Assembly: GCA_013205085.1 (NCBI GenBank)
Contig: JABMLH010000002.1
Location: 561,425 to 625,424 of the forward strand
Length of the DNA stretch: 64,000 nucleotides
Direction: 5' to 3'
Source: Microbacteriaceae bacterium VKM Ac-2854
GTDB taxonomy: Bacteria; Actinomycetota; Actinomycetes; Actinomycetales; Microbacteriaceae
The notes under the pieces were generated by a model, which worked only from the letters and a program-made list of their open reading frames with translations, made no database searches and was not told the DNA's origin. Within the stretch, counting starts at the first letter, position 1; every line of letters starts with the position of its first letter. A program made the translations under genes and the position numbers. This document shows positions 2,939 through 49,877 of the stretch, in pieces.

Positions 2939-4714
2939 GTGGTTCGACCCATTCCAGAGCACGCCGTCCGAAGGACCCGGGGCACGCTGATCGCTGCCGG
3001 CACCACGATCGGGGTCGGGGCGGTGATCATCGGGATGGCCTTCGCACCCAGCGCGTCGGCCGTCGAGCCGGGATCGTTCGCCGAAGCCGTCACGGTGGAC
3101 GGCATCATGACGCACCTCGAGGCCCTGCAGGGTGTGGCGGATGCCAACGACGGCAACCGCGCAGCGGGGACGGCCGGGTACGAGGCGAGCGCCGAGTACG
3201 TCGAGTCGGTCCTCACCGCTGCGGGCTACACCCCGACGCGGCAGGCGTTCGACACCTGGGTGTACACGTCGGAGGGCTACAGCCTGGAGGTGCCGCCAGG
3301 GACGCTGGTCGACGACGCCGGTATCCCGATGGAGTTCAGCCCGTCGACGCCCGTGGGCGGAGTGACCGGCGAACTGGTCGCACCGGTCTCGGCGGTGCAG
3401 GGCTGTGCGGCGGACGACGCCTGGGCCGGCGTCGACCTCACCGGCAAGATCGCGCTGGTCAGCCGCGGCACCTGCTCCTTCGCCGAGAAGTCGGTCGAAG
3501 CCGGTGCGGCGGGCGCCTCGGCCATCTTCATCTACAACAACTCGACCGTCGGTGACGAGGCGCTCAGCGGCACGCTCGGCCAGCCGGAGGACGGCACCAT
3601 CCCCGCCGTCGGCTTCACCGCCGACGAGGGCGCCGTCGCCATCGCCGCCCTCGCTCAGGGCCCGGTGACCGCGACGGTCGACGTGCAGGGCTCGTCCGAG
3701 TTCGTCGAGACCTTCAACATCATCGCCGAGACCGCGACCGGAGCCGCCGACAACGTCGTAATGCTCGGCGCCCATCTCGACAGCGTTCCGGAAGGTGCCG
3801 GTATCAACGACAACGGCAGCGGATCCGCCGCCCTGCTGGAGACCGCCGTGCAACTCGGCGCGAACGGTGACGTGAACAACAAGGTCCGCTTCGCCTGGTG
3901 GGGTGCGGAAGAGGTCGGCTTGGTCGGCTCGTACTACTACACCGACAACCTGACGGAGGACGAGGCCGCCGACATCGCGACCTACCTGAACTTCGACATG
4001 GTCGCCTCGCCGAACTACGTGATCTCGGTCTACGACGCCAACGAGTCCACCTATCCGGCCCCGGACGGACTGGTGATCCCGGAGGGATCGATCGCCACGG
4101 AGGCCGCGTTCACGGACTACTTCGACTCGATCGACCAGCCGTGGATCGACACCGCGTTCGATGGCCGCAGTGACTACGACGGCTTCATCTCGGCCGGCAT
4201 CCCCGCCTCCGGTGTCTTCACCGGTGCGGACGATGTGAAGACGCAGGAGGAAGCCGATCTCTTCGGCGGCACCGTGGGCGAGACGCACGACCCGAACTAC
4301 CACTCCCCCGCTGACGACATCAACAACATCAACGCGGAGGCGCTCGGGATCACCTCGAAGGCGATCGCCTACGTGACGGCGCAGTTCGCGATGGACACCT
4401 CGTCCATCAACGGCGTCGTGCCGCCCACGCCCACCCCGACGGCGACGCCCACCGCGACCCCGACCGCGACGGCGACTCCGACGCCGACCGCGACCGCGAC
4501 CCCGACCGCGACGGCGACTCCGACGCCGACCGCGACCCCGACCGCCACGGCCACGCCGACCGCGACGGCCGCCCCGGTTCCGACGAAGACGCCCAAGCCG
4601 CACCTGGCGGCGACCGGAACCGACACGGCTCTGCCGCTCGGTATCGGTGGCCTGCTGATCGCCGGAGGTGTCGGCGCCGTGCTGCTGACCACGCTGCGCC
4701 GCCGCAAGGCGTAA
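2939..4714 (+). CDS. Secreted M28-family zinc aminopeptidase with PA domain and LAXTG sorting signal
   Basis: This 591-residue protein has a signal peptide ending near ASA (residue 41) and a PA-domain insert ([16 protein letters not shown]). The M28 metallopeptidase core follows, with the expected zinc and catalytic motifs in order: [26 protein letters not shown] and [13 protein letters not shown]28 enzymes remove N-terminal residues from peptides outside the cell. The C-terminus has about 60 residues of Pro-Thr-Ala spacer, LAATG, a hydrophobic stretch and RRRKA, which is a class E sortase sorting signal, so the enzyme is probably linked to the cell wall. The start is GTG 2939 with AAGGGA upstream. 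A duplicated terminator follows it. Confidence 0.9.
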
Positions 4715-5241: not shown

Positions 5242-6159
5242 ATGCGCAGACCATCACGAACCGTCGCCCTCGCAGCCCTCCTCCTCGCCGCCGCCCTCGG
5301 ACTCAGCGGCTGCGTCGCCGCGGGCGGCAGCGACTCCTCCGTCTCGGTCGACGCCCCGGTGTCGGGCGGTGAAGAGGCCGGGGTCGCCGCCGGCTCGGCC
5401 GGCGACTCCGCCGCCGCCGACCCGGCCACCCAGGCGGAGGGCGAGCGACAGGTGATCCAGACGGGCTATGCGACGATCACGGTGACCGACCCGGCCGAAG
5501 CCGCGGACGAGGCCACCCGCATCGCCCTCGCGGCGGGCGGGCGGGTCGATGACCGCACCGAGCAGAGCGCGGACGGCGTCACCCAGGCGCGCGCATCACT
5601 CACCCTGCGCGTGCCGGCCGATGCCCTCGAGGATGCGCTGACGAAGCTGAAGGCGCTCGGCGACCCGGTCTCCGTCTCGATCTCAGCGAACGACGTCACC
5701 TCGACGGTCACCGATCTGGACGCGCGGATCGCGGCGCTGCAGGCCTCCGTGGATCGGCTGCTCGCCCTGCTGGCGCAGGCGACCTCGACCGCCGACCTGA
5801 TCACGATCGAGGGCAGCCTCTCCTCCCGACAGGCCGATCTGGACGCACTCACCGCCCAGCGCGCGGCCCTCGGCGAGCAGGTGGCGATGTCGACGCTCTC
5901 GGTGGAACTCGTCGCCCCCGGCACGGTCGTCGGATCCGGGCCGCAGGATTTCTGGCAGGGTCTGGCCGCCGGCTGGGCGGGGCTGATCGCCGCCGGGTCC
6001 GGTCTGCTGGTGGGGCTCGGGGTGCTGATCCCGTGGCTGCTGCCGCTGGCCGTGATCGCACTGCTCGTGCTGCTGGTCATCCGTCGGTCCCGCAAGCGCA
6101 GAATCGCCCCGATCACGGTCGCCCCGGCGGCTCCCCCGTCCAACGCCGAGGGCGAATGA
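5242..6159 (+). CDS. DUF4349 domain lipoprotein
   Basis: This 305-residue protein starts with a lipoprotein signal peptide whose lipobox is LSGC (Cys near residue 24). A Ser/Ala/Gly-rich linker follows, then the DUF4349 domain (about residues 70-235). That domain contains paired strands and a long coiled coil (LDARIAALQASVDRLLALL) ending in a VELVAP strand. A C-terminal membrane segment (about 250-280) and a basic RRSRKRR tail anchor it. DUF4349 proteins are envelope proteins of unknown function common in Actinobacteria. The gene appears leaderless. It converges on the acyl-lipid operon, separated by a hairpin. Confidence 0.85.
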   Translation: MRRPSRTVALAALLLAAALGLSGCVAAGGSDSSVSVDAPVSGGEEAGVAAGSAGDSAAADPATQAEGERQVIQTGYATITVTDPAEAADEATRIALAAGGRVDDRTEQSADGVTQARASLTLRVPADALEDALTKLKALGDPVSVSISANDVTSTVTDLDARIAALQASVDRLLALLAQATSTADLITIEGSLSSRQADLDALTAQRAALGEQVAMSTLSVELVAPGTVVGSGPQDFWQGLAAGWAGLIAAGSGLLVGLGVLIPWLLPLAVIALLVLLVIRRSRKRRIAPITVAPAAPPSNAEGE

Positions 6160-6177
6160 CGTCACTCCCTCCGCGAA

Positions 6178-6235
6178 CGGCGGTTGAGAACCGGTCGTGA
6201 ACGGTATCTCGTTCGCGCCGCACTCTCAACCGCCG
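6178..6235. terminator. Long-stem palindrome between convergent genes (family I)
   Basis: CGGCGGTTGAGA (6178-6189) pairs perfectly with TCTCAACCGCCG (6224-6235) around a 34 nt loop. It lies 18 nt after the DUF4349 stop and 14 nt from the acyltransferase stop, so it is well placed as a bidirectional terminator. Seen once in the window. Confidence 0.65.
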
Positions 6236-6249
6236 CTCGTGTTAGGGAC

Positions 6250-7545
6250 CTACCGCGGGGGCACGCCGTCGCGGACACCCTCCTCGATGGCGGCGCCGAC
6301 CGCGGCGAGCAGCGCGGCGACGTCGGTGCTCGTGCGCGTGGTCATCGTGATCACCAGTCGCCCCGCGTACGAGGTGGCGAAGCAGGCGATGTCGTGCGCC
6401 GGGTCGCCCGCCGGCCAGGCGAGAACCTGCTCCAGGCGGGCGCTGCCGAGGTAGCGGTCCTTGCCCGTCAGCGGGATGAACGTGGCGTAGCCCGACACCG
6501 GCTCGGTGACGGGCGGCAGCCCGGCCGACCCCGCCGAGATCGCGGCGCGGATCTGGCCCCGCACCGCCGGCACCACCTCCGTGAGCTCCTGCCCACCGGG
6601 GATCGACACCCGCACCACGCTGACGTGGTTGCGGGCCGTCGCGTGCGCCTTCGTGCGCCGCGAGACCGGCACCAGCAGTGCCGCCCCCGCGCCGTCGCGG
6701 GCGGCGATCGCGGCCAGCACCGTGGAGAGCACCAGGTCGCTGACGGTGCACGGGTACCGCTTGGCGTGGCCCGTGACCACCGTCAGGTCGAGAACGAGGG
6801 CGGCGGAGTGCCGGGCCGGCAGGTAACTCGCGCGTAGCCCGCGCCGCTCGATCACCTGATCGCGCATCGGCCGCAGCAGCCGCCCGCCCGAGCGCCGCAA
6901 CCGGCGACGCAGGGGCTTGCGCCAGTACTCCGCCCACGCCGCCCGCGGCGAGGCCTGCTGGGCGTACCACTGCCGCCAGGCGACCATCAGCAACTCGGCC
7001 AGGTGCCGCGGCCCTCGACTCGACGGCAGAGCGGGCTCGGCCCGCTCGCCGCTCGGACCGACCGTCAGCAGCCGATCGAGCACACCCATCGCCCAGATCG
7101 CGTCGCCCATCACGTGCTGGAAGCGCACGATCAGCACCGCGCGGCCGTCCAGCGCCTCCGCCACCACGACCTCCCACGGCGAGTGCCGCAGCGGGAGGTG
7201 CGGGAAGGCGCGTCCCGTGAGCAGCTCCGTGCCCGCCGGCCCGAGGTCGACCGGTTCGTCGAGGAACCGCACGTGGTTCTCGATCGCGAAGTGCGCATCC
7301 GGCACCCAGGCCGGCGTCGTGAGTCCGAACGGAACGCGAACGATCCGCTTGCGCAGCTCCGGCGTCGCGGCGGCGAGCCAGGCGATCTGCTCCGAGATCG
7401 CCGCCCGGTCGAGGGAGCCGTCCGCGCGCCGCCACGTCGTCGCATCGAGCACCAGCGCCGCCGCGGCGTGCATCGCCTCGTAGGCGACGACGTTCACCAC
7501 GTACTTCTCGTCGAGGGTGCGCAGCAGCTCGACGTCGACGCTCAT
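6250..7545 (-). CDS. WS/DGAT-like acyltransferase, last gene of the FAAL operon
   Basis: This 431-residue protein has the wax ester synthase/diacylglycerol acyltransferase fold, a relative of NRPS condensation domains. The catalytic HHxxxDG motif appears as QHVMGDA (residues 143-149): the second His and the Asp are kept, the first His is Gln and the Gly is Ala. A later RNHVSVVRVSIP segment matches the conserved NxVSxxxxxLP region. The family transfers acyl groups from CoA or carrier proteins to alcohols or amines. Here the natural donor is the acyl-ACP made by the operon; the acceptor is unknown. The ATG at 7545 overlaps the phosphopantetheinyl transferase stop by 4 nt, so the two are translationally coupled. 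Confidence 0.75.
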   Translation of the reverse strand: MSVDVELLRTLDEKYVVNVVAYEAMHAAAALVLDATTWRRADGSLDRAAISEQIAWLAAATPELRKRIVRVPFGLTTPAWVPDAHFAIENHVRFLDEPVDLGPAGTELLTGRAFPHLPLRHSPWEVVVAEALDGRAVLIVRFQHVMGDAIWAMGVLDRLLTVGPSGERAEPALPSSRGPRHLAELLMVAWRQWYAQQASPRAAWAEYWRKPLRRRLRRSGGRLLRPMRDQVIERRGLRASYLPARHSAALVLDLTVVTGHAKRYPCTVSDLVLSTVLAAIAARDGAGAALLVPVSRRTKAHATARNHVSVVRVSIPGGQELTEVVPAVRGQIRAAISAGSAGLPPVTEPVSGYATFIPLTGKDRYLGSARLEQVLAWPAGDPAHDIACFATSYAGRLVITMTTRTSTDVAALLAAVGAAIEEGVRDGVPPR

Positions 7546-8075
7546 GCGCCCGCCTCGATCCACACGGCGCAGATCCGCAGCGCCCCCAGCCGGTGGCGCA
7601 GCACATGCACCCCCGGCATCCGTTCGATCTCGGCGACGCCGACGCGGTCGAAGCCGAGCGCGAGGCCCACCCCGCGCGCCTTGGCGTACGCCTCCTTCAC
7701 GGCGAGCACCTCGGCGAGTTCGAGGCCGCGGTCGCCCGGCGCGCAGAGCCGGCGCTCGATCGCGGTGGGCAGCGGATGCGCGGCGACGTCGATCCCGACG
7801 GATCCGGACTCGACGATCGCCACCGCGACCAGACCAGCGCCGTGGCTGATGCTGAGGTCGTAGCCGCCGCCGACCGGCGCGGGCTTGTGCCGGATGGACG
7901 ACGCCGCGAGACCGTGCCAGCCCAGCCCGGCCGCGTCGGCCAGTCGTCGAGCCAGGGCGCGACCGGCGACGAACTCGGCGGCGCGACGGGACGGCATCCG
8001 CGCCCAACGTCGGCTCTCGCCACGCAGGACGCTCGGATCCTGGACCGTCGAGACCGGGGCGGCCGCCAGCCGCAT
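7542..8075 (-). CDS. 4'-phosphopantetheinyl transferase, Sfp superfamily
   Basis: This 177-residue protein carries the Sfp-type motifs: LSISHGAG (His 78), VGIDVA (Asp 96) and the AVKEAYAKARG magnesium/catalytic motif (Lys 127, Glu 128). These enzymes move the 4'-phosphopantetheine arm of CoA onto a serine of a carrier protein. The obvious client is the ACP encoded just upstream in the same operon (2 nt gap). It is shorter than Sfp, as many EntD/AcpT-like forms are. One oddity is that the acidic residue after GID-V, usually Glu, is Ala. An in-operon activating enzyme suggests a dedicated carrier protein rather than shared fatty-acid ACP. Confidence 0.82.
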   Translation of the reverse strand: MRLAAAPVSTVQDPSVLRGESRRWARMPSRRAAEFVAGRALARRLADAAGLGWHGLAASSIRHKPAPVGGGYDLSISHGAGLVAVAIVESGSVGIDVAAHPLPTAIERRLCAPGDRGLELAEVLAVKEAYAKARGVGLALGFDRVGVAEIERMPGVHVLRHRLGALRICAVWIEAGA

Positions 8076-8077
8076 GC

Positions 8078-8344
8078 TCAGGGCTTCGCCTCGGCGATCG
8101 CGCCGGCGACGCCCTCACTCAGCGAGCGCAGGGTCGGGTAGTCCCAGGCGAACGTCGGATCGACCTCGATGCCGTAGGTGTCCTCGATGTCGCCGGCGAG
8201 GGTGAGCGCGAAAGCCGAGTCCAGGCCGAGTTCGACGAGCGAGACGTCCGGCCCGATGTCGGACTCGTCGATGTCGGTGTAGACGAGGGCCTTCTCGACG
8301 ATCCAACTCTGGATCTCGTCGGCGGTGGGGGTGAGGGTGGTCAT
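8078..8344 (-). CDS. Acyl carrier protein
   Basis: This 88-residue acidic helical protein has the carrier-protein attachment motif ELGLDSAFAL, with the serine to be phosphopantetheinylated at residue 43. The helix-II segment LTLAGDIEDTYGIEV follows. It is a free-standing carrier protein that would hold an acyl chain as a thioester. It lies between the acyl-CoA dehydrogenase-like gene (4 nt overlap at the start) and the phosphopantetheinyl transferase. Gene order indicates loading by the fatty acyl-AMP ligase and modification of the bound chain by the two dehydrogenase-like proteins; that order is inferred from the families. Confidence 0.9.
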   Translation of the reverse strand: MTTLTPTADEIQSWIVEKALVYTDIDESDIGPDVSLVELGLDSAFALTLAGDIEDTYGIEVDPTFAWDYPTLRSLSEGVAGAIAEAKP

Positions 8345-10077
8345 CCGGGGAGCCTTTCAGTGCTGGGGATGGTGGGCGTTCTGGTGGCGACGGTGACGGG
8401 GGTCGCGTCGAGGCCGAGGCTGAGGCCGGCCTCGCGGCGGCGCAGGGTGCGCTCGACGAGGAACTCGACGCTGTCGGCGTCGAGCACGGCGCGTCGGCCG
8501 CGGTACTGGGCGAGCAACCGCTGCAGTGCGGCGCTCAACCAGCGCGGATCGGCGGTGTCGGCATCGGAGGCATCGGAGCCGTCGGCGTCGTCGGCAGCAG
8601 CGGCGGCGGCGCACCGCCACACCCCCACGCACGCGCCGGCCGCCTGCACGAGTGTGTAGCGCCGCGCCAGGGCGAAGGTGGCGGGCGACGCATCCGGTCC
8701 GAGGCCCCGCGGATCCAGCGCGGCCGTCGCGGCGAGCAGCTCGGCCCGCAGCTGCGCGAACGTGGCGATCAGGCCGTCGACCCGTGCGGATCCCGTGGTC
8801 GCGGCGAGCAGCTCCGCGCCGAAGGGATCCCCGGCACCGGCACCGATCTCGAAGCGCGCGAAGTCGATCTCGGTCGTGACGGAACCGGGGGTGAACAGCT
8901 CATCCTGCGGCGGCATCGCCCGTTCGGCTCGACGACGCCACGCGGGCAGGTTGGGGATGATCGACAGCAGGCACGTCGTGGCGCCCGCGTGCCCGATCGG
9001 CACCACCAGCAGATCGCGGCAGAGCTTCTCGAACGCCGCGTACGGGCTGACCCTGGCGTAGAACGTGGAGCCGAACAGCACCGAGAGCGTGCGCATCGCC
9101 TCGTTGAGGGTCGAGGGCACCAGGTACTTGCTGGCGGCGCTCAGCAGGAACGCGCTGCGCGGCGCGTGATGCAGCGCGCGCACGACGCTGGCGCTGAACG
9201 CATCGCAGAGCAGGAGGTCGGCGGCCGCATCGGCCAGCAGCGCTCCGGCGTGCGGCAGATCGAGCACGCGGCCGCGGTAGAGCCGGCGCTGCGCCGCGTA
9301 GTCCACGGCCAGGCGCAGGCCGGTGTCCAGCCCGCCGACCGCGAGCGCCGGCACAACGGCCCGCGTCACCTGGAATGCGCGCAACGCGGTGCCGACGGCC
9401 CCGCCGAGTTCACCGACCACGGCGGAGCGATCCAGCAGCAGGCCGTCGAAGTCGGCGCCGCCCAACCGGCAGCCACGCATCCCCGCGGTCGGATAGCGGT
9501 GCGCGGTGTCGGCGTGCCCCGCATCCGCAGCGCCTTTGCGCCAGAGCACCAGGGTGTGGCTGCGCGGTCCCAGCGCTTCCGAACTGCGCGCGAAGAGCAG
9601 AACGGCCTCGGCGCGGTCGAGGTTGTTCACCACCTGCTTGCCGCCGTCGATCCGGACGGCCTCGTCGGTGATGGTGGCGCGGCAGTCGTTGGCCAGGAGG
9701 TCGTTGCCGTGAGCCAGCTCGTGGAAGCCGACCGCGATCCGCTCGCCGGCCAGCAGGCGCCCGGCGACCTCGGTGCGGACGCGCTCGTCGCCTCCGGCCC
9801 ACACGTTGACGGCCGCCATCAGCGAGGTGAGCCCGTGTCCGAGCCCGAGGGCGGGGTCGCGGCGGAACACCGGTCGCAGCCGGTGCACCAGCTGCTCCGT
9901 CGAGACCCAGCGGCCGCCGGCGGAGGCCGGCACGAACTCGGCGCCCCAGCCCCAGGCGGCGAGCGCACGTTCGCCCCAATCGCTGAGTTCCCGGGCGTCG
10001 TCAGCGGCGACGATCGCCTCGAAGTCGAAGGGCCCCGGCACGGTCGGATCGCCGAGCACCGTCTCGAGGTCGCTCAC
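8341..10077 (-). CDS. Acyl-CoA dehydrogenase-like flavoprotein, subunit lacking the canonical catalytic Glu
   Basis: This 578-residue protein has the acyl-CoA dehydrogenase fold with a C-terminal extension beyond the usual 380-400 residues. The flavin-region motif is degenerate (FHELAHGNDLLAN, residues 118-130, where the family has TEPGAGSDL). At the position of the catalytic base (IYEGT in family members) it reads IGHAG, giving His 363 in place of Glu. It is coupled to a second dehydrogenase-like gene by a 4 nt overlap. Actinobacterial acyl-CoA dehydrogenases can be two-gene heterotetramers with only one catalytic subunit. This protein may be the structural or FAD-sharing partner. Substrate is presumably acyl-ACP. 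Confidence 0.8.
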   Translation of the reverse strand: MSDLETVLGDPTVPGPFDFEAIVAADDARELSDWGERALAAWGWGAEFVPASAGGRWVSTEQLVHRLRPVFRRDPALGLGHGLTSLMAAVNVWAGGDERVRTEVAGRLLAGERIAVGFHELAHGNDLLANDCRATITDEAVRIDGGKQVVNNLDRAEAVLLFARSSEALGPRSHTLVLWRKGAADAGHADTAHRYPTAGMRGCRLGGADFDGLLLDRSAVVGELGGAVGTALRAFQVTRAVVPALAVGGLDTGLRLAVDYAAQRRLYRGRVLDLPHAGALLADAAADLLLCDAFSASVVRALHHAPRSAFLLSAASKYLVPSTLNEAMRTLSVLFGSTFYARVSPYAAFEKLCRDLLVVPIGHAGATTCLLSIIPNLPAWRRRAERAMPPQDELFTPGSVTTEIDFARFEIGAGAGDPFGAELLAATTGSARVDGLIATFAQLRAELLAATAALDPRGLGPDASPATFALARRYTLVQAAGACVGVWRCAAAAAADDADGSDASDADTADPRWLSAALQRLLAQYRGRRAVLDADSVEFLVERTLRRREAGLSLGLDATPVTVATRTPTIPSTERLPG

Positions 10078-11768
10078 GTCGCCGCCTCGAACGCCGGCGC
10101 CTCGGAGCGCGCGGCGTCGAACACCGACGCGTCACCCCCCGCGCCGAGGCGCTCCGCCACGGCCTCGAATCCCTCGGCCACCAGCGCGTCACCGGGGTCT
10201 GACAGCCCCAGTCGTTGAGCGAGCCGGGCGATCACCAGTCGCGCCGTCAGGGCATCCGGGCCGAATCCGCCGCCGTTCTCGGTCAGCGTGAGCACCGACG
10301 CCGCCGCGAACAGCGTCGCCACCCGCTCGGCCGCGAGGTAGTGCTCGGGCGGCGGGAACGGCGCCCGCTTGAACGTGCGGACCTCGGCCATGGTCTGGGT
10401 GAACTCCCGCAGCAGCGCCGCGCAGTCCCGGCCGAAATCCGGATCCGGGATGCGCGCCGCCGCCGCATCCAGCAGCTCCGGCAGCGCACGCAGCAGAGCG
10501 GATCCGCGGCGCGAGAACAGGCGCAGGCTGCCGAAATCGATGGGCACCGGCTCGGTCAGGGTCGCGCTGGTGCCGAGCGCGGCGCGCGCGCGAGCATCCG
10601 CCGCCTCCCCCTCGCGCAGCATCGACGGGAACTCGCCCACGATGACACCGAGGTTGACCACCGAGTTGCCGTCGAAGATCGCCACGATCCGGTGGTCGCG
10701 CAGCACCTTCTGGAAGACGTTGCCGGGAGCGAGCTCGGTCAGCTGCGAACGAGCGCCGAGCAGTTGGCTGAGGTCCCGCAACAGCAGATCGACGGTGTCG
10801 GGCACGAAGAACTTGACCAGCGAGCTGACCAGCGCCATCTCGTCGATCCGGTGGTGCACGTGCCGGGCACCGACGATCGCGACCGCCTCGGCGCTGAGGG
10901 CATCGGAGGCGGCGGCCACGAGCGCGGCGCGGGCCGCCGGCAGCGTCGCAAGGTCGCGGCCGAACATCCGCCGTTCGAGCACGAAGCCGCCGACCACGCG
11001 CAGGCCCAGATCGGCGGCCCCGAGCGAGAGCGCGGTGCACAGCGGGCGCGTCAGCTGCAGGCTCTTCAGCACGATCTCCAAGCCCTCGCCCGGCGCGCCG
11101 ATCACGGCGTCCGTCGACACCGGCGCCGCTTCGAAGCCGAGCCCGCTGATGTCGGCCCCGCGGATGCCGTGAGTGGCCACCTTGGGCAGCGGCGCGAAGC
11201 GGTTCGCCGGCAGCTGGGCCTTGTCGACGTACAGCAGCGTGTGCGCACGCGGCCCGCTGCGCTCGTCCACCCGGGCCAGCACAGTCATCGCCCGGCCCCG
11301 CGTCGCATTGTTGATCGGCCACTTCTCGCCGTCCAGCACGATCCCGCGGGGGCCGAAGCGGGCCGTGGTGGCGGTGGCACCGAGGTCGCTGCCGCGGCCG
11401 CGCTCGGTGAGCCCCCACGAAACGGGCTGCCCGGCGAGCACGGTGTCCGCGACCCGACGCCGCACGGCCTCGTCGCCGGCGACCCAGGTGCTCACCGAAC
11501 CGAGGAAGGTCTTGCCGTGCGCGACCGCCGCCGTGAGGTCGCGGCCGGCGATGGCCCGGATCATCCGCATCGGCGCCAGCACGTCGCCGAGGTCGCCGCC
11601 GTCCTCGAGCGGCACGTAGCTGCGGGCGAGCCCCAGCTCGTCGATCGCGTCGATCGCGCGCTGCGGGAAGGCGCTGCGCTCGTCGTCGGCGAGCGAGCTC
11701 GCGAAGTCGATGACGCCGCCGGGCACCGCGGGGTCGCCGAGAGCGGCCGCGAACGACTCCGGGGTCAC
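10074..11768 (-). CDS. Acyl-CoA dehydrogenase-like flavoprotein, probable catalytic subunit
   Basis: This 564-residue protein has a well-kept acyl-CoA dehydrogenase core. LTERGRGSDLGATATTA (residues 120-136) is the flavin/substrate motif, and the DGEKWPINNA strand follows it. The catalytic-base region reads AIFDGNS, so an Asp (366) replaces the usual Glu. Family enzymes oxidise an acyl thioester to the 2,3-enoyl thioester with FAD. With a carrier protein and fatty acyl-AMP ligase beside it, the substrate is probably acyl-ACP, as known for FadE14/MbtN in mycobactin acyl-chain desaturation. It overlaps both neighbours by 4 nt (ATGA). Activity with Asp as base is an inference. Confidence 0.82.
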   Translation of the reverse strand: MTPESFAAALGDPAVPGGVIDFASSLADDERSAFPQRAIDAIDELGLARSYVPLEDGGDLGDVLAPMRMIRAIAGRDLTAAVAHGKTFLGSVSTWVAGDEAVRRRVADTVLAGQPVSWGLTERGRGSDLGATATTARFGPRGIVLDGEKWPINNATRGRAMTVLARVDERSGPRAHTLLYVDKAQLPANRFAPLPKVATHGIRGADISGLGFEAAPVSTDAVIGAPGEGLEIVLKSLQLTRPLCTALSLGAADLGLRVVGGFVLERRMFGRDLATLPAARAALVAAASDALSAEAVAIVGARHVHHRIDEMALVSSLVKFFVPDTVDLLLRDLSQLLGARSQLTELAPGNVFQKVLRDHRIVAIFDGNSVVNLGVIVGEFPSMLREGEAADARARAALGTSATLTEPVPIDFGSLRLFSRRGSALLRALPELLDAAAARIPDPDFGRDCAALLREFTQTMAEVRTFKRAPFPPPEHYLAAERVATLFAAASVLTLTENGGGFGPDALTARLVIARLAQRLGLSDPGDALVAEGFEAVAERLGAGGDASVFDAARSEAPAFEAAT

Positions 11769-13480
11769 GACACCGACACCGGAAGGTCGACGCGGACGAG
11801 GGCGTCGGTCTCGAACAGCGCCCGAGCGCCCGAGCGCTGGATCTTGCCGCTGGTGGTGCGCGGCAGCGAGCCGCGGCGCACGGTAACGAGGTCCAGCGAG
11901 GGCAGACCGAACTCCTGCACCAGCGTGCGACGCATCCGCTCGAGTTCGGCCGCCGCGCCGGCCGCGGTCAGCGCCCGCGGCTCGACCTCGAGCGCGAGTC
12001 CGACCCGGTCCCCGTCGGAGCCGTGCGAGAAGGCGGCACTGTTGGGTCCGGCCAGCGCCGGTACCAGCACCGCGGCGCGCTCCTCGATGTCCTGCGGGTA
12101 GACGTTCTTGCCGCGCACGATGATGAGGTCCTTGATCCGGCCGGTCACGATCACGTCGCCGTCGATCACGATGCCGAGGTCGCCGGTGCGCAGCTGCCGC
12201 ACCCCCGGTTCCCCGTCGATCTCGGCCCCGAAGTCGGCCAGAGTCGCGGCCTCGTCACGCCAGTAGCCGGCCGAGACGCTCGGGCCGCTGACCCAGAGCT
12301 CGCCGATCTCGCCCGCGGAGCGCCGTCTCCTGGTGGCGGGATCGACCACGCTGACCCGGTGGCCCGGGGCGACGGCGCCGCAGGAGACGGATTCGATCGC
12401 CAGGGCAGCCGGTTCGGCCACCTCGAAGCGGCCGGCGGCGAGCGCCGCGACATCGGCCCGACGGATGCGCACGCCCTCGCCCTCGGGGCGGAAGCCGGAG
12501 ACCAGCAGGGTCGTCTCGGCCATGCCGTACGCCGGCACGAACGCGTCCGCGCGGAAGCCGGCGGGAGCGAAACGCTCCGCGAACTGCGCCAGGGTGCGGG
12601 CCTTGACGGGCTCGGCGCCCGTGATCGCGACGTCCAGGGCCGAGAGATCGAGCTCGGCGATCACCTCGTCGCTGACCAGGCGGGCGCACATCGCGTAGGC
12701 GAAGTCGGGAGCCACCGTTGTGCTCGCGCGGTGCTCGGACAGCAGTCGGAGCCAGAACGCGGGGCGCTTGAGGAACTGCAGCGGCGAGGTCAGCACCGCG
12801 TCCATGCCGCGGTACATCGGATGCAGCAGCAGGCCGATCAGGCCCATGTCGTGATAGTGCGGCAGCCAGCCGACCGCGACCCCGTCGGGGCGAGTGCGCA
12901 GCGCCTGACCGATCACCGCCTGGTTCGCCAGCAGGTTCGCGTGCGTGACCATCACACCCTTGGGCGTGCCGGTGGAGCCCGAGGTGTACTGCAGGATCGC
13001 CAGCGCCTCCGCCGGGAGGGCCGGGCGGCGCCAATCGGCGGCGTCGCCGAGCGCATCCGTGTCGATCAGGCGCACGGTCACGCCGTCGAGGGCGCCCACC
13101 GTGCTGTCGGCCAGCAGCGCCCAGGTCACCGTGTCGGTGAGGATGAGCCGAGCCCCCGAGTGGCGCAGCATCGCCAGCATCCGCTCGACGACGACGGCGG
13201 CCGGGGCGGAGGCGGTCACCGCGACCGGGGCGATCGTGATGCCGGCGTACATCGCAGCGGTGACGGCGCGCGCGACGTTCAGCCCGGCCGAGAAGGCGAG
13301 CAGGGCGATGTCTCCTGGCCCGAAACCGTCGGCGTTCAGCGCGACGGCGCGGGCCGCCGCCTCCTGATCCAGCTCGGCGTAGCTGAGTCGGGAGTTCTGC
13401 GTCGGCGACGCAGCGAAGGTGATCCCACGCTCGGCGGATGCCGATTCGCGCAACGCGTCGACGAACGTCCGACCCGCCAT
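11765..13480 (-). CDS. Fatty acyl-AMP ligase (FAAL), first gene of the acyl-lipid operon
   Basis: This 571-residue adenylating enzyme activates a fatty acid as acyl-AMP and passes it to a carrier protein. Motifs include the phosphate loop YTSGSTGTPKG (residues 165-175), WLPHYHDMGLIG (205-216) and PAYGMAETTLLVSG, the last two characteristic of FAALs rather than CoA ligases. The hinge TGDLG and a C-terminal catalytic lysine in TTSGKIQ are also present. Starts at 13480 and 13492 are both possible; GGAGG lies 12 nt before the first and too close to the second. Upstream in-frame sequence to 13783 overlaps the Ku promoter region and has no domain homology. It leads an operon of six genes. Confidence 0.9.
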   Translation of the reverse strand: MAGRTFVDALRESASAERGITFAASPTQNSRLSYAELDQEAAARAVALNADGFGPGDIALLAFSAGLNVARAVTAAMYAGITIAPVAVTASAPAAVVVERMLAMLRHSGARLILTDTVTWALLADSTVGALDGVTVRLIDTDALGDAADWRRPALPAEALAILQYTSGSTGTPKGVMVTHANLLANQAVIGQALRTRPDGVAVGWLPHYHDMGLIGLLLHPMYRGMDAVLTSPLQFLKRPAFWLRLLSEHRASTTVAPDFAYAMCARLVSDEVIAELDLSALDVAITGAEPVKARTLAQFAERFAPAGFRADAFVPAYGMAETTLLVSGFRPEGEGVRIRRADVAALAAGRFEVAEPAALAIESVSCGAVAPGHRVSVVDPATRRRRSAGEIGELWVSGPSVSAGYWRDEAATLADFGAEIDGEPGVRQLRTGDLGIVIDGDVIVTGRIKDLIIVRGKNVYPQDIEERAAVLVPALAGPNSAAFSHGSDGDRVGLALEVEPRALTAAGAAAELERMRRTLVQEFGLPSLDLVTVRRGSLPRTTSGKIQRSGARALFETDALVRVDLPVSVS

Positions 13481-13727
13481 AGCCGCCCCCATTCCTCCGC
13501 ATCCCTGCGGTTCGACCGACAACCTAGCGGTGGGCTGAACCTGGGTCGAGAGAGTTCTCATGTTGTTTACACGCGCCGGCACCCCCCGATCGAGCCGAGC
13601 GGGCCGAGGGGGCTCGTCGGGCGGACGGCCGACGACACCGACCGGACGTGAGCACACCGAGCATCCGCTGCCCACCGCTGCGGCGCGCGTCTTCCCGATC
13701 CGCGCGCGCAGGGTATCTAATGAGGCC

Positions 13728-14639
13728 ATGAGAGCCATCTGGAAGGGCGCGATCACATTCGGCCTCGTCAACGTGCCGGTCAAGATCTACAGCGCGACCG
13801 AGAGCCACGACATCGCCCTGCACCAGGTGCACGACGCGGACGGCGGGCGGATCCGCTACCAGCGTCGCTGCGAGATCTGCAGCAAGATCGTGCCGTACGA
13901 GCACATCGACAAGGCCTACGACGACGGCGAGAAGACGGTGGTGCTGACGGCGGAGGACATCAAGTCGCTGCCGGCCGAACGCGACCGCGAGATCGACGTG
14001 GTGCAGTTCGTGCCGAACGACCAGATCGATCCGATCATGTTCGACAGCGCCTATGTGCTCGAGCCCGACGGCTCCTCCCCCAAGGCCTACGTGCTGCTGC
14101 GGCGCACGCTGGAGCAGACCGATCGCACGGCGATCGTCGAGTTCGCGCTGCGCCAGAAGACCCGACTGGCGGCGCTCCGGGTCCGCGGCAAGCTGCTGAT
14201 GCTGCAGACACTGCTCTGGTCGGACGAGGTGCGCGAGGTGTCCTTCCCGGCGCTGGACGAGGACATCCGCATCGCCAAGCGCGAGCTGGACATGTCGTCG
14301 AAGCTGGTCGAGTCGTACTCGGAGGACTTCGATCCGACGGCGTTCCGCGACGAGTACCAGGAGGAGATGCGGGTGCTGATCGAGGCGAAGCTGGAGCAGG
14401 GCGATGCGCTCGACACCGCCGCGACCTTCGGCGAGGTGCCGGAGGCCGAGGAGAAGGCCGAGGGCGACGGCAATGTGATCGACCTGATGGAGGCGCTGAA
14501 GCGCTCGGTCGACAGCAAGCGTTCGAAGGCGAAGCAGCCGGCCGAGAAGAAGGAGCCGGCCACGAAGGCCACCGCGGCCAAGACCGCCACGAAGACCGCC
14601 ACCAAGACCGCGCCGAAGAAGAAGGCGTCCGGCGAGTAG
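13728..14639 (+). CDS. ku: Ku protein, non-homologous end joining
   Basis: This 303-residue bacterial Ku homologue begins with the canonical MRAIWKGAITFGLVNVPVKI and keeps the core (GGRIRYQRRCEICSKIV, then the DEVREV region). A roughly 60-residue Lys/Ala-rich tail (KAKQPAEKKEPATKATAAKT) follows, of the kind that contacts DNA in actinobacterial Ku. Ku homodimers thread onto broken DNA ends and recruit ligase D. No ligD lies in the window, so the partner is elsewhere. The start at 13728 has GAGG 3 nt upstream and a TATCTA-like box close by, so a very short leader is possible. The next gene begins 1 nt after its stop. Confidence 0.95.
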   Translation: MRAIWKGAITFGLVNVPVKIYSATESHDIALHQVHDADGGRIRYQRRCEICSKIVPYEHIDKAYDDGEKTVVLTAEDIKSLPAERDREIDVVQFVPNDQIDPIMFDSAYVLEPDGSSPKAYVLLRRTLEQTDRTAIVEFALRQKTRLAALRVRGKLLMLQTLLWSDEVREVSFPALDEDIRIAKRELDMSSKLVESYSEDFDPTAFRDEYQEEMRVLIEAKLEQGDALDTAATFGEVPEAEEKAEGDGNVIDLMEALKRSVDSKRSKAKQPAEKKEPATKATAAKTATKTATKTAPKKKASGE

Positions 14640-49732: not shown

Positions 49733-49877
49733 AAACGTGCTCCGGGGTCGGTGAGAATCCGAACCGGCGGTGATAGTCCGCGAGCCGTTCGATCCACCGG
49801 GAGGTGCGTCGAGTGGTTGATCCGGTGGAAATCCGGAACCGACGGTTAAAGTCCGGATGGGAGGCAGCACGAGCGTT
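49733..49877 (+). ncRNA. FMN riboswitch (RFN element)
   Basis: The conserved RFN core is present in order: GGGGTCGGTGAGAATCCGAA, CCGGCGGTGATAGTCCGCGA, a variable stem, GATCCGGTGGAAATCCGGAA, CCGACGGTTAAAGTCCGGAT and GGGAGGCAGCACG. The closing helix P1 is formed by AACGTGCTC and GAGCGTT. FMN binding shuts off the downstream ribD-ribE-ribBA-ribH operon. Downstream, CTCGT (49928-49932) and ACGAG (49938-49942) can pair just before the ribD start region. Control could therefore be at translation, at termination, or both; the sequence does not decide. Confidence 0.97.

Follow-up and report, generated by a model that had tools for sequence, protein, structure and literature searches.

What becomes of a fatty acyl chain when the operon equipped to activate it and hold it on an acyl carrier protein (ACP) ends in an acyltransferase? 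This question is raised by six minus-strand open reading frames (ORFs) at positions 6250-13480 of a 64-kb stretch of DNA from Microbacteriaceae bacterium VKM Ac-2854, referred to below as the window. In transcription order they encode a fatty acyl-AMP ligase (FAAL), two acyl-CoA-dehydrogenase-like proteins (ACAD1 and ACAD2), an ACP, a phosphopantetheinyl transferase (PPTase) and a protein resembling wax ester synthase/diacylglycerol acyltransferases (WS/DGAT; here WS). We tentatively propose that the operon makes a 2-unsaturated acyl-ACP, whose chain is esterified to a hydroxyl of a sugar in the repeat unit of an exopolysaccharide (EPS) or in a glycolipid. Our case is built on the genes present, their homology and motif residues, signs of selection, and the link of the acyltransferase subfamily to EPS loci, all observed directly. 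Formation of the acyl-ACP is well supported by homology; the sugar acceptor is the weakest step, which we infer with slightly less than even confidence.

The operon and its four-gene core

Neighboring frames overlap by 4 nt at four junctions (FAAL/ACAD1, ACAD1/ACAD2, ACAD2/ACP and PPTase/WS) and are separated by a 2-nt gap between ACP and PPTase. The genome of VKM Ac-2855 (G004) retains the six genes and every one of the five junctions, with amino-acid identities, in gene order, of 80, 78, 79, 88, 58 and 80% and dN/dS values of 0.18, 0.22, 0.21, 0.16, 0.50 and 0.21; the PPTase is the fastest-evolving gene of the operon. The operon is under purifying selection in these two genomes of one Microbacteriaceae genus, and its conservation and dN/dS values in G004 rule out a chance packing of ORFs. 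The gene identities, order and spacing given in a first-pass annotation of this DNA are confirmed by the ORFs, the Pfam matches and this conservation, as is its claim that no polyketide synthase (PKS) or nonribosomal peptide synthetase (NRPS) modules lie nearby: condensation (C), adenylation (A) and ketosynthase (KS) domain probes found no match at 1e-8 in the window.

By their sequences and order, the first four genes are a known lipopeptide starter-lipid cassette. Because they match the rotihibin cassette gene for gene, a known kit accounts for two thirds of the operon, and this rotihibin-type cassette is a closer precedent than the mycobactin locus that had been suggested. A search of 398 family genomes with ACAD2 at 1e-20 gave matches in seven. 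All six genes occur in two of these (the source genome and G004); three carry FAAL-ACAD-ACAD-ACP-PPTase without an adjacent WS (G375, G177 and G002), G001 has a FAAL, an ACP and one ACAD in another order, and G292 has matches to both ACADs and the PPTase and none to the FAAL. Among 27 loci taken from genome contigs, the cassette is complete and collinear in 22, with at least one gene missing from the available DNA in L048, L053, L055, L057 and L064; a PPTase and a WS stand beside it in one (L039, from the same genome as G004). In the available DNA of the other 26 there is a condensation match in 13, a KS match in three, an adenylation match only in three and none of these in seven, where a negative probe is not proof of absence (inspection by eye shows an ORF resembling a PKS acyltransferase in L064, one of the seven). 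At class level, 394 genomes were sampled and 27 matched at 1e-30; 25 of these were covered by loci of 13-20 kb, the other two being G000 and G177. The four genes are collinear in eight of the 25 (L179-L181, L183-L185, L187 and L200) and have the FAAL on the other side in two (L182 and L186), while 15 lack at least one match; neither WS query found a WS in any of the 25. The unusual composition claimed for the operon therefore holds in part: the acyltransferase ending looks specific (2/398 family genomes, 0/25 class-level loci and 1/27 cassette loci, that one in G004), whereas the core is known and seven of 26 other loci are likewise without a C, A or KS match. The search for the six-gene order that the annotation had suggested returned the full set in two genomes of one genus, and the first four genes are those of the known rotihibin-type cassette.

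In trees of both FAAL and ACAD2, the window, G004, G375, G177, G002 and Sphaerimonospora (L040) group together (99/95 and 100/100), apart from the NRPS-linked Streptomyces; the FAAL tree left out row L048, an NRPS match. All six are without a local C or KS match (L040 is a 16-kb contig), and their adenylation-probe matches are the FAAL itself. In G002 (L067 9112-20000, L069 1-2290) and Sphaerimonospora mesophila (L040 6265-16052) the cassette is followed by shared TetR-like, AMP-binding and further genes. G002 also has a PPTase after the ACP and one long frame in which a FAD/NAD(P)-binding part is fused to a lyase that scores 541.5 of 650 bits against nitrosuccinate lyase; possibly this is a lipid cluster that employs nitrous acid chemistry. 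In Streptomyces lasiicapitis (L044 6538-13724) the cassette precedes an aldehyde dehydrogenase gene (PF00171, 5.7e-126); C, A and KS probes matched nothing in the available DNA.

The corresponding site was compared in 12 same-genus relatives that lack the six-gene operon, in DNA covering the Ku locus and as much as 1.5 kb to either side of it. The gene for an M28 peptidase, which in the window lies beyond the DUF4349 gene, falls within this flank in nine of the 12; L114 and L122 have no M28 match and L121 ends at a contig edge. Since none of the 12 Ku loci contains operon genes, either this lineage gained the operon or it was lost elsewhere. G004 has an ORF with an HNH domain between WS and DUF4349 (L066 14825-16501) that the window does not have. 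A tRNA-Ser called by ARAGORN at window 4461-4552, antisense within the Thr/Pro-repeat part of the M28 peptidase gene and absent from an Rfam gathering search, is probably a false call. A scan of 5900-14000 found no sigma-70-like site, and its sole terminator-like site (10831-10814) lies inside ACAD1; shuffled sequences give an expectation of 1.4 such sites for the scan.

Table 1. Genes of the operon, its flanking genes and one further element of the window.
Feature	Position	Strand	Details
FAAL, first gene	11765-13480	-	571 aa; PF00501 AMP-binding 8.5e-61, above Pfam cut-off
ACAD1, acyl-CoA-dehydrogenase-like	10074-11768	-	564 aa; PF00441 (ACAD C-terminal domain) 1.5e-13, above Pfam cut-off; PF02770 9.9e-12
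ACAD2, acyl-CoA-dehydrogenase-like	8341-10077	-	578 aa; PF00441 2.7e-9, above Pfam cut-off
Free-standing ACP, phosphopantetheine Ser in GLDS	8078-8344	-	88 aa; PF00550 (PP-binding) 6.1e-14, above Pfam cut-off
PPTase	7542-8075	-	177 aa; PF01648 (ACPS), near cut-off
WS/DGAT-fold acyltransferase, last gene, QHVMGDA motif	6250-7545	-	431 aa; WS_DGAT_cat 3.3e-9, above Pfam cut-off
Ku	13725-14639	+	upstream of operon, divergent
DUF4349 protein	5242-6159	+	downstream of operon, convergent
FMN riboswitch	49734-49873	+	95.7 bits

Loading and desaturation of the chain

The best solved relatives of the FAAL are 7r7g (374.9 bits over residues 6-560), 7r7e and 7r7f, all named Polyketide synthase, 3kxw (Saframycin Mx1 synthetase B), 3pbk (Fatty Acyl-Adenylate Ligase), FadD23 and 5d6j (Acyl-CoA synthase); despite their names, we take 7r7g/e/f, 3kxw and 5d6j to be FAALs. 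The alignment with 7r7g is gapless across query residues 306-407, and the protein belongs with the FAALs, including the FAAL-specific insertion, which we take to sit after the YGMAE motif. Its identity to FAALs from collinear cassettes ranges from 34 to 80%, and the protein scores only 221.8 of 621 bits against the MbtM model. The phosphopantetheine serine of the ACP is conserved in all 29 aligned rows. Against Pfam ACPS, the PPTase scores 24.2 of the required 25 bits as a protein and 25.3 in a genome scan with its neighbors in frame. PPTases of the Sfp and AcpS types have GID and KEA motifs with two acidic metal ligands; GIDV and VKEA are kept here, and the acidic residue after GIDV is missing in the window and present in G004 (VGIDVVDA).

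The ACAD pair has a distinctive signature at the column of the usual catalytic glutamate, which we take to be Glu376 of MCAD. ACAD1 has aspartate there, in an IFDG motif, in 31 of 33 rows, and ACAD2 has histidine, in a GH motif, in 27 of 29 (four of 33 rows, longer than 650 aa, were dropped before counting). The exceptions are L068, with glutamate in both sets, and L090, with aspartate in both, each of which enters both sets with the same stretch, and L055, whose ACAD1 row is actually its ACAD2. Since these counts hold in NRPS-linked and stand-alone cassettes alike, the Asp/His pair is conserved across both. The ACAD2 profile matches ACAD structures (3pfd, 2.4e-32). One possibility that we infer is a heteromer of ACAD1 and ACAD2 forming one active site, and not two successive desaturases; a 2021 review, in its passages on these enzymes, states that no mechanistic studies of the paired ACADs had been reported (PMC9113097). 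The operon context with FAAL and ACP and the differing base column make it unlikely that these are ordinary beta-oxidation enzymes, with the caveat that relatives of ACAD2 do not always lie in a cassette.

We therefore picture a pathway in which each reaction is predicted from homology, and in which the chain length, double-bond position and sugar acceptor are predictions as well. The PPTase would arm the ACP, and the FAAL would activate a fatty acid as acyl-AMP and load it onto the carrier. ACAD1 and ACAD2 would act jointly on the chain while the ACP holds it, yielding a 2-unsaturated acyl-ACP, probably cis-2-enoyl or 2,4-dienoyl, and the WS/DGAT-fold enzyme would then esterify the unsaturated chain to a sugar hydroxyl of an EPS repeat unit or glycolipid.

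The acyltransferase and its acceptor

The last protein of the operon has the WS/DGAT fold and scores 37.4 bits against PF03007 (cut-off 23.6). The WS/DGAT motif is HHxxxDG; QHVMGDA in the operon WS keeps the second histidine and the aspartate, has glutamine for the first histidine and does not keep the glycine. The QH variant recurs in five relatives from EPS loci (G007, G003, G261, G301 and G158). A WS search of the 398 family genomes at 1e-5 matched 25, and loci were obtained for 20, leaving out the weakest (G100, G125, G225, G272 and G345). GT2 glycosyltransferase and hexapeptide-transferase genes are neighbors in 16 of 18 non-operon WS loci, or 18 of 20 with the EPS copies of the source genome and G004 included, and a recurrent Microbacteriaceae EPS locus has the order GT4-GT2-WS-hexapeptide transferase (e.g., L131 13230-17394, L135 12918-17897 and L137 5431-10482). 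Because the relatives of the operon WS sit in EPS loci, the acceptor, first given as an alcohol or amine, can be narrowed in favor of a sugar hydroxyl. Ester-linked fatty acids have been reported on a Rhodococcus EPS (PMC12786566), and the proposed class of product therefore exists chemically.

The two gene sets also meet directly. In G375 and G177, of another genus, the FAAL-ACAD-ACAD-ACP-PPTase unit adjoins an EPS locus: the outermost gene of that locus, for a polysaccharide pyruvyl transferase (recognized by Pfam in G375 and by an 80% identical tblastn match in G177), is the divergent neighbor of the start of the FAAL. The EPS WS of these genomes, about 17 kb from the cassette, is the closest non-operon WS found (41%). 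Genes in the G375 locus encode glycosyltransferases, a Wzy_C protein, a GDSL lipase and an EPS initiating sugar transferase that scores above its NCBIfam cut-off; some 4 kb past the WS lies a UDP-sugar dehydrogenase.

Several observations weigh against a sugar acceptor or the pathway leading to it. Eight EPS probes found no match in the window, and the operon does not adjoin an EPS locus. The EPS link rests on 20 WS loci, with five of the 25 matching genomes, of weaker match, outside the count, and two of the 20 (L108 and L109) lack GT2 and hexapeptide-transferase neighbors, although L109 has a sugar-transferase match. Since G375 and G177 belong to one genus, their cassette-EPS adjacency is probably one event. 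In the best tree the operon WS is nearest by path to the G375/G177 EPS WS, yet forms no clade with them (split 88/90); a forced grouping is not rejected (p-AU 0.116), whereas a recent duplication from the EPS WS of its own genome is (p-AU 3e-43). EPS-type WS occur in many genomes without a cassette and so need not use cassette acyl-ACP. Finally, ACAD2 has no acidic residue at the usual base column.

An unlikely but serious alternative accepts the same acyl-ACP and has the enzyme pass the chain to diacylglycerol, an amine or a small alcohol, so that the product would be a secreted lipid (a free ester or amide) and not a glycan ester. The fold of the operon WS is closest to wax ester synthases, and its sole NCBIfam match is TIGR02946, at 79.2 of 309.95 bits and so below cut-off, as the G375 EPS WS also is (92.8 bits); the lack of EPS probe matches near the operon fits such a product too. 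Against it stands the company that the nearest subfamily members keep, which in 18 of 20 loci consists of EPS genes.

More doubtful again is that the cassette feeds an NRPS/PKS pair in trans, to give a lipo-amino-acid or short lipopeptide-ketide that the WS releases or modifies. That the operon is self-contained, as first annotated, does not follow from its gene content, for contig C15 of the same genome carries a small NRPS/PKS pair, with C-A-T in one frame and, next to it, KS-T-TE with no AT-domain match in the other (L148 6448-13790); the C domain comes first if a start codon placed by eye is right, and keeps a His...Asp motif. Collinear cassettes often serve such enzymes, with a C or KS match in 15 of the 22 complete loci, but this pair lies on a different contig, the operon has an acyltransferase of its own, and its five nearest cassette relatives are also without a local C or KS match. 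Least probable of all is that the WS-fold enzyme is not an O-acyltransferase and releases or dehydrates the acyl-ACP to a free 2-enoic acid, such as a signal resembling diffusible signal factor (DSF), given that the motif histidine and aspartate are kept, the QH variant is shared with the five EPS-locus relatives and the operon has no thioesterase.

Returning to a sugar ester, an enoyl-ACP kit from antibiotic tails coupled to a polysaccharide acyltransferase could give surface or secreted glycans bearing 2-enoyl (DSF-like) esters. Diffusible signals, in the form of 2-enoic acids, could then be set free by hydrolysis of these esters (the EPS locus of G375 includes a GDSL lipase); we regard this extension as a long shot. 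If the pathway itself is correct, FAAL-ACAD-ACAD-ACP would be a portable source of unsaturated acyl-ACP for varied acceptors beyond its role as an NRPS/PKS accessory, its partners by gene adjacency being NRPS, PKS, aldehyde dehydrogenase, a nitrosuccinate-lyase cluster and, in the operon, an acyltransferase. It would be a candidate for the way in which fatty acids are attached to exopolysaccharides in actinobacteria, and the megasynthase-free six-gene unit would be a simple system for studying the Asp/His ACAD pair on ACP-bound chains.

Relation to known systems

The four-gene core is known, and its combination with a PPTase and a WS/DGAT protein is undescribed as far as we could find. Searches of the open-access PMC literature with exact wordings, without synonyms, found no paper that combined a FAAL, an ACAD and an ACP with a wax ester synthase, or with both an acyltransferase and a PPTase, none on a FAAL in Microbacteriaceae, and none that joined a wax ester synthase, EPS, a glycosyltransferase and an acyltransferase. 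The mycobactin genes mbtM-mbtL-mbtN share a FAAL, an ACP and a dehydrogenase with the operon; unlike it, they presumably have one dehydrogenase and no WS enzyme. Mycobacterial glycolipid pathways follow a FAAL-PKS-Pap logic, whereas the window has no PKS match and the chain of the operon is presumably modified by the ACADs on a free ACP.

The WS/DGAT acyltransferases 6chj and 7nxg are 14-17% identical to the operon WS and have the first motif histidine where it has glutamine; unlike theirs, its donor is likely to be acyl-ACP rather than acyl-CoA. The EPS-locus subfamily is closer, at 29-40% identity with 22 residues invariant across 20 sequences (alignment A1, which left out WS row L107, where a stop fell in the frame taken). 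Its members sit among glycosyltransferases, whereas the operon WS ends a FAAL operon and has no glycosyltransferase or hexapeptide-transferase neighbors.

Daptomycin-type lipopeptides share the FAAL and free ACP, in a FAAL:ACP:C-III initiation described in parts of PMC9113097, where one or two ACAD genes between FAAL and ACP match one or two lipid double bonds; that initiation uses a condensation domain (C-III), for which the window has no match. The nearest parallel is the rotihibin cluster of Streptomyces scabiei, whose order, in the passages of PMC8552735 on the cluster, is RthH (FAAL), RthI and RthJ (ACADs), RthK (ACP) and then the NRPS RthA. Our locus L051 (NC_013929.1 352593-374263) lies within the cosmid insert of that paper, to judge from the same passages, and has the same gene order (PMC8552735). 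RthH-I-J-K and the operon share the FAAL-ACAD-ACAD-ACP order and the Asp/His ACAD pair, with homologues 33-43% identical, and they part company after the ACP gene, which in rotihibin flanks the pentamodular NRPS RthA and in the operon is followed instead by a PPTase and a WS/DGAT-fold acyltransferase.

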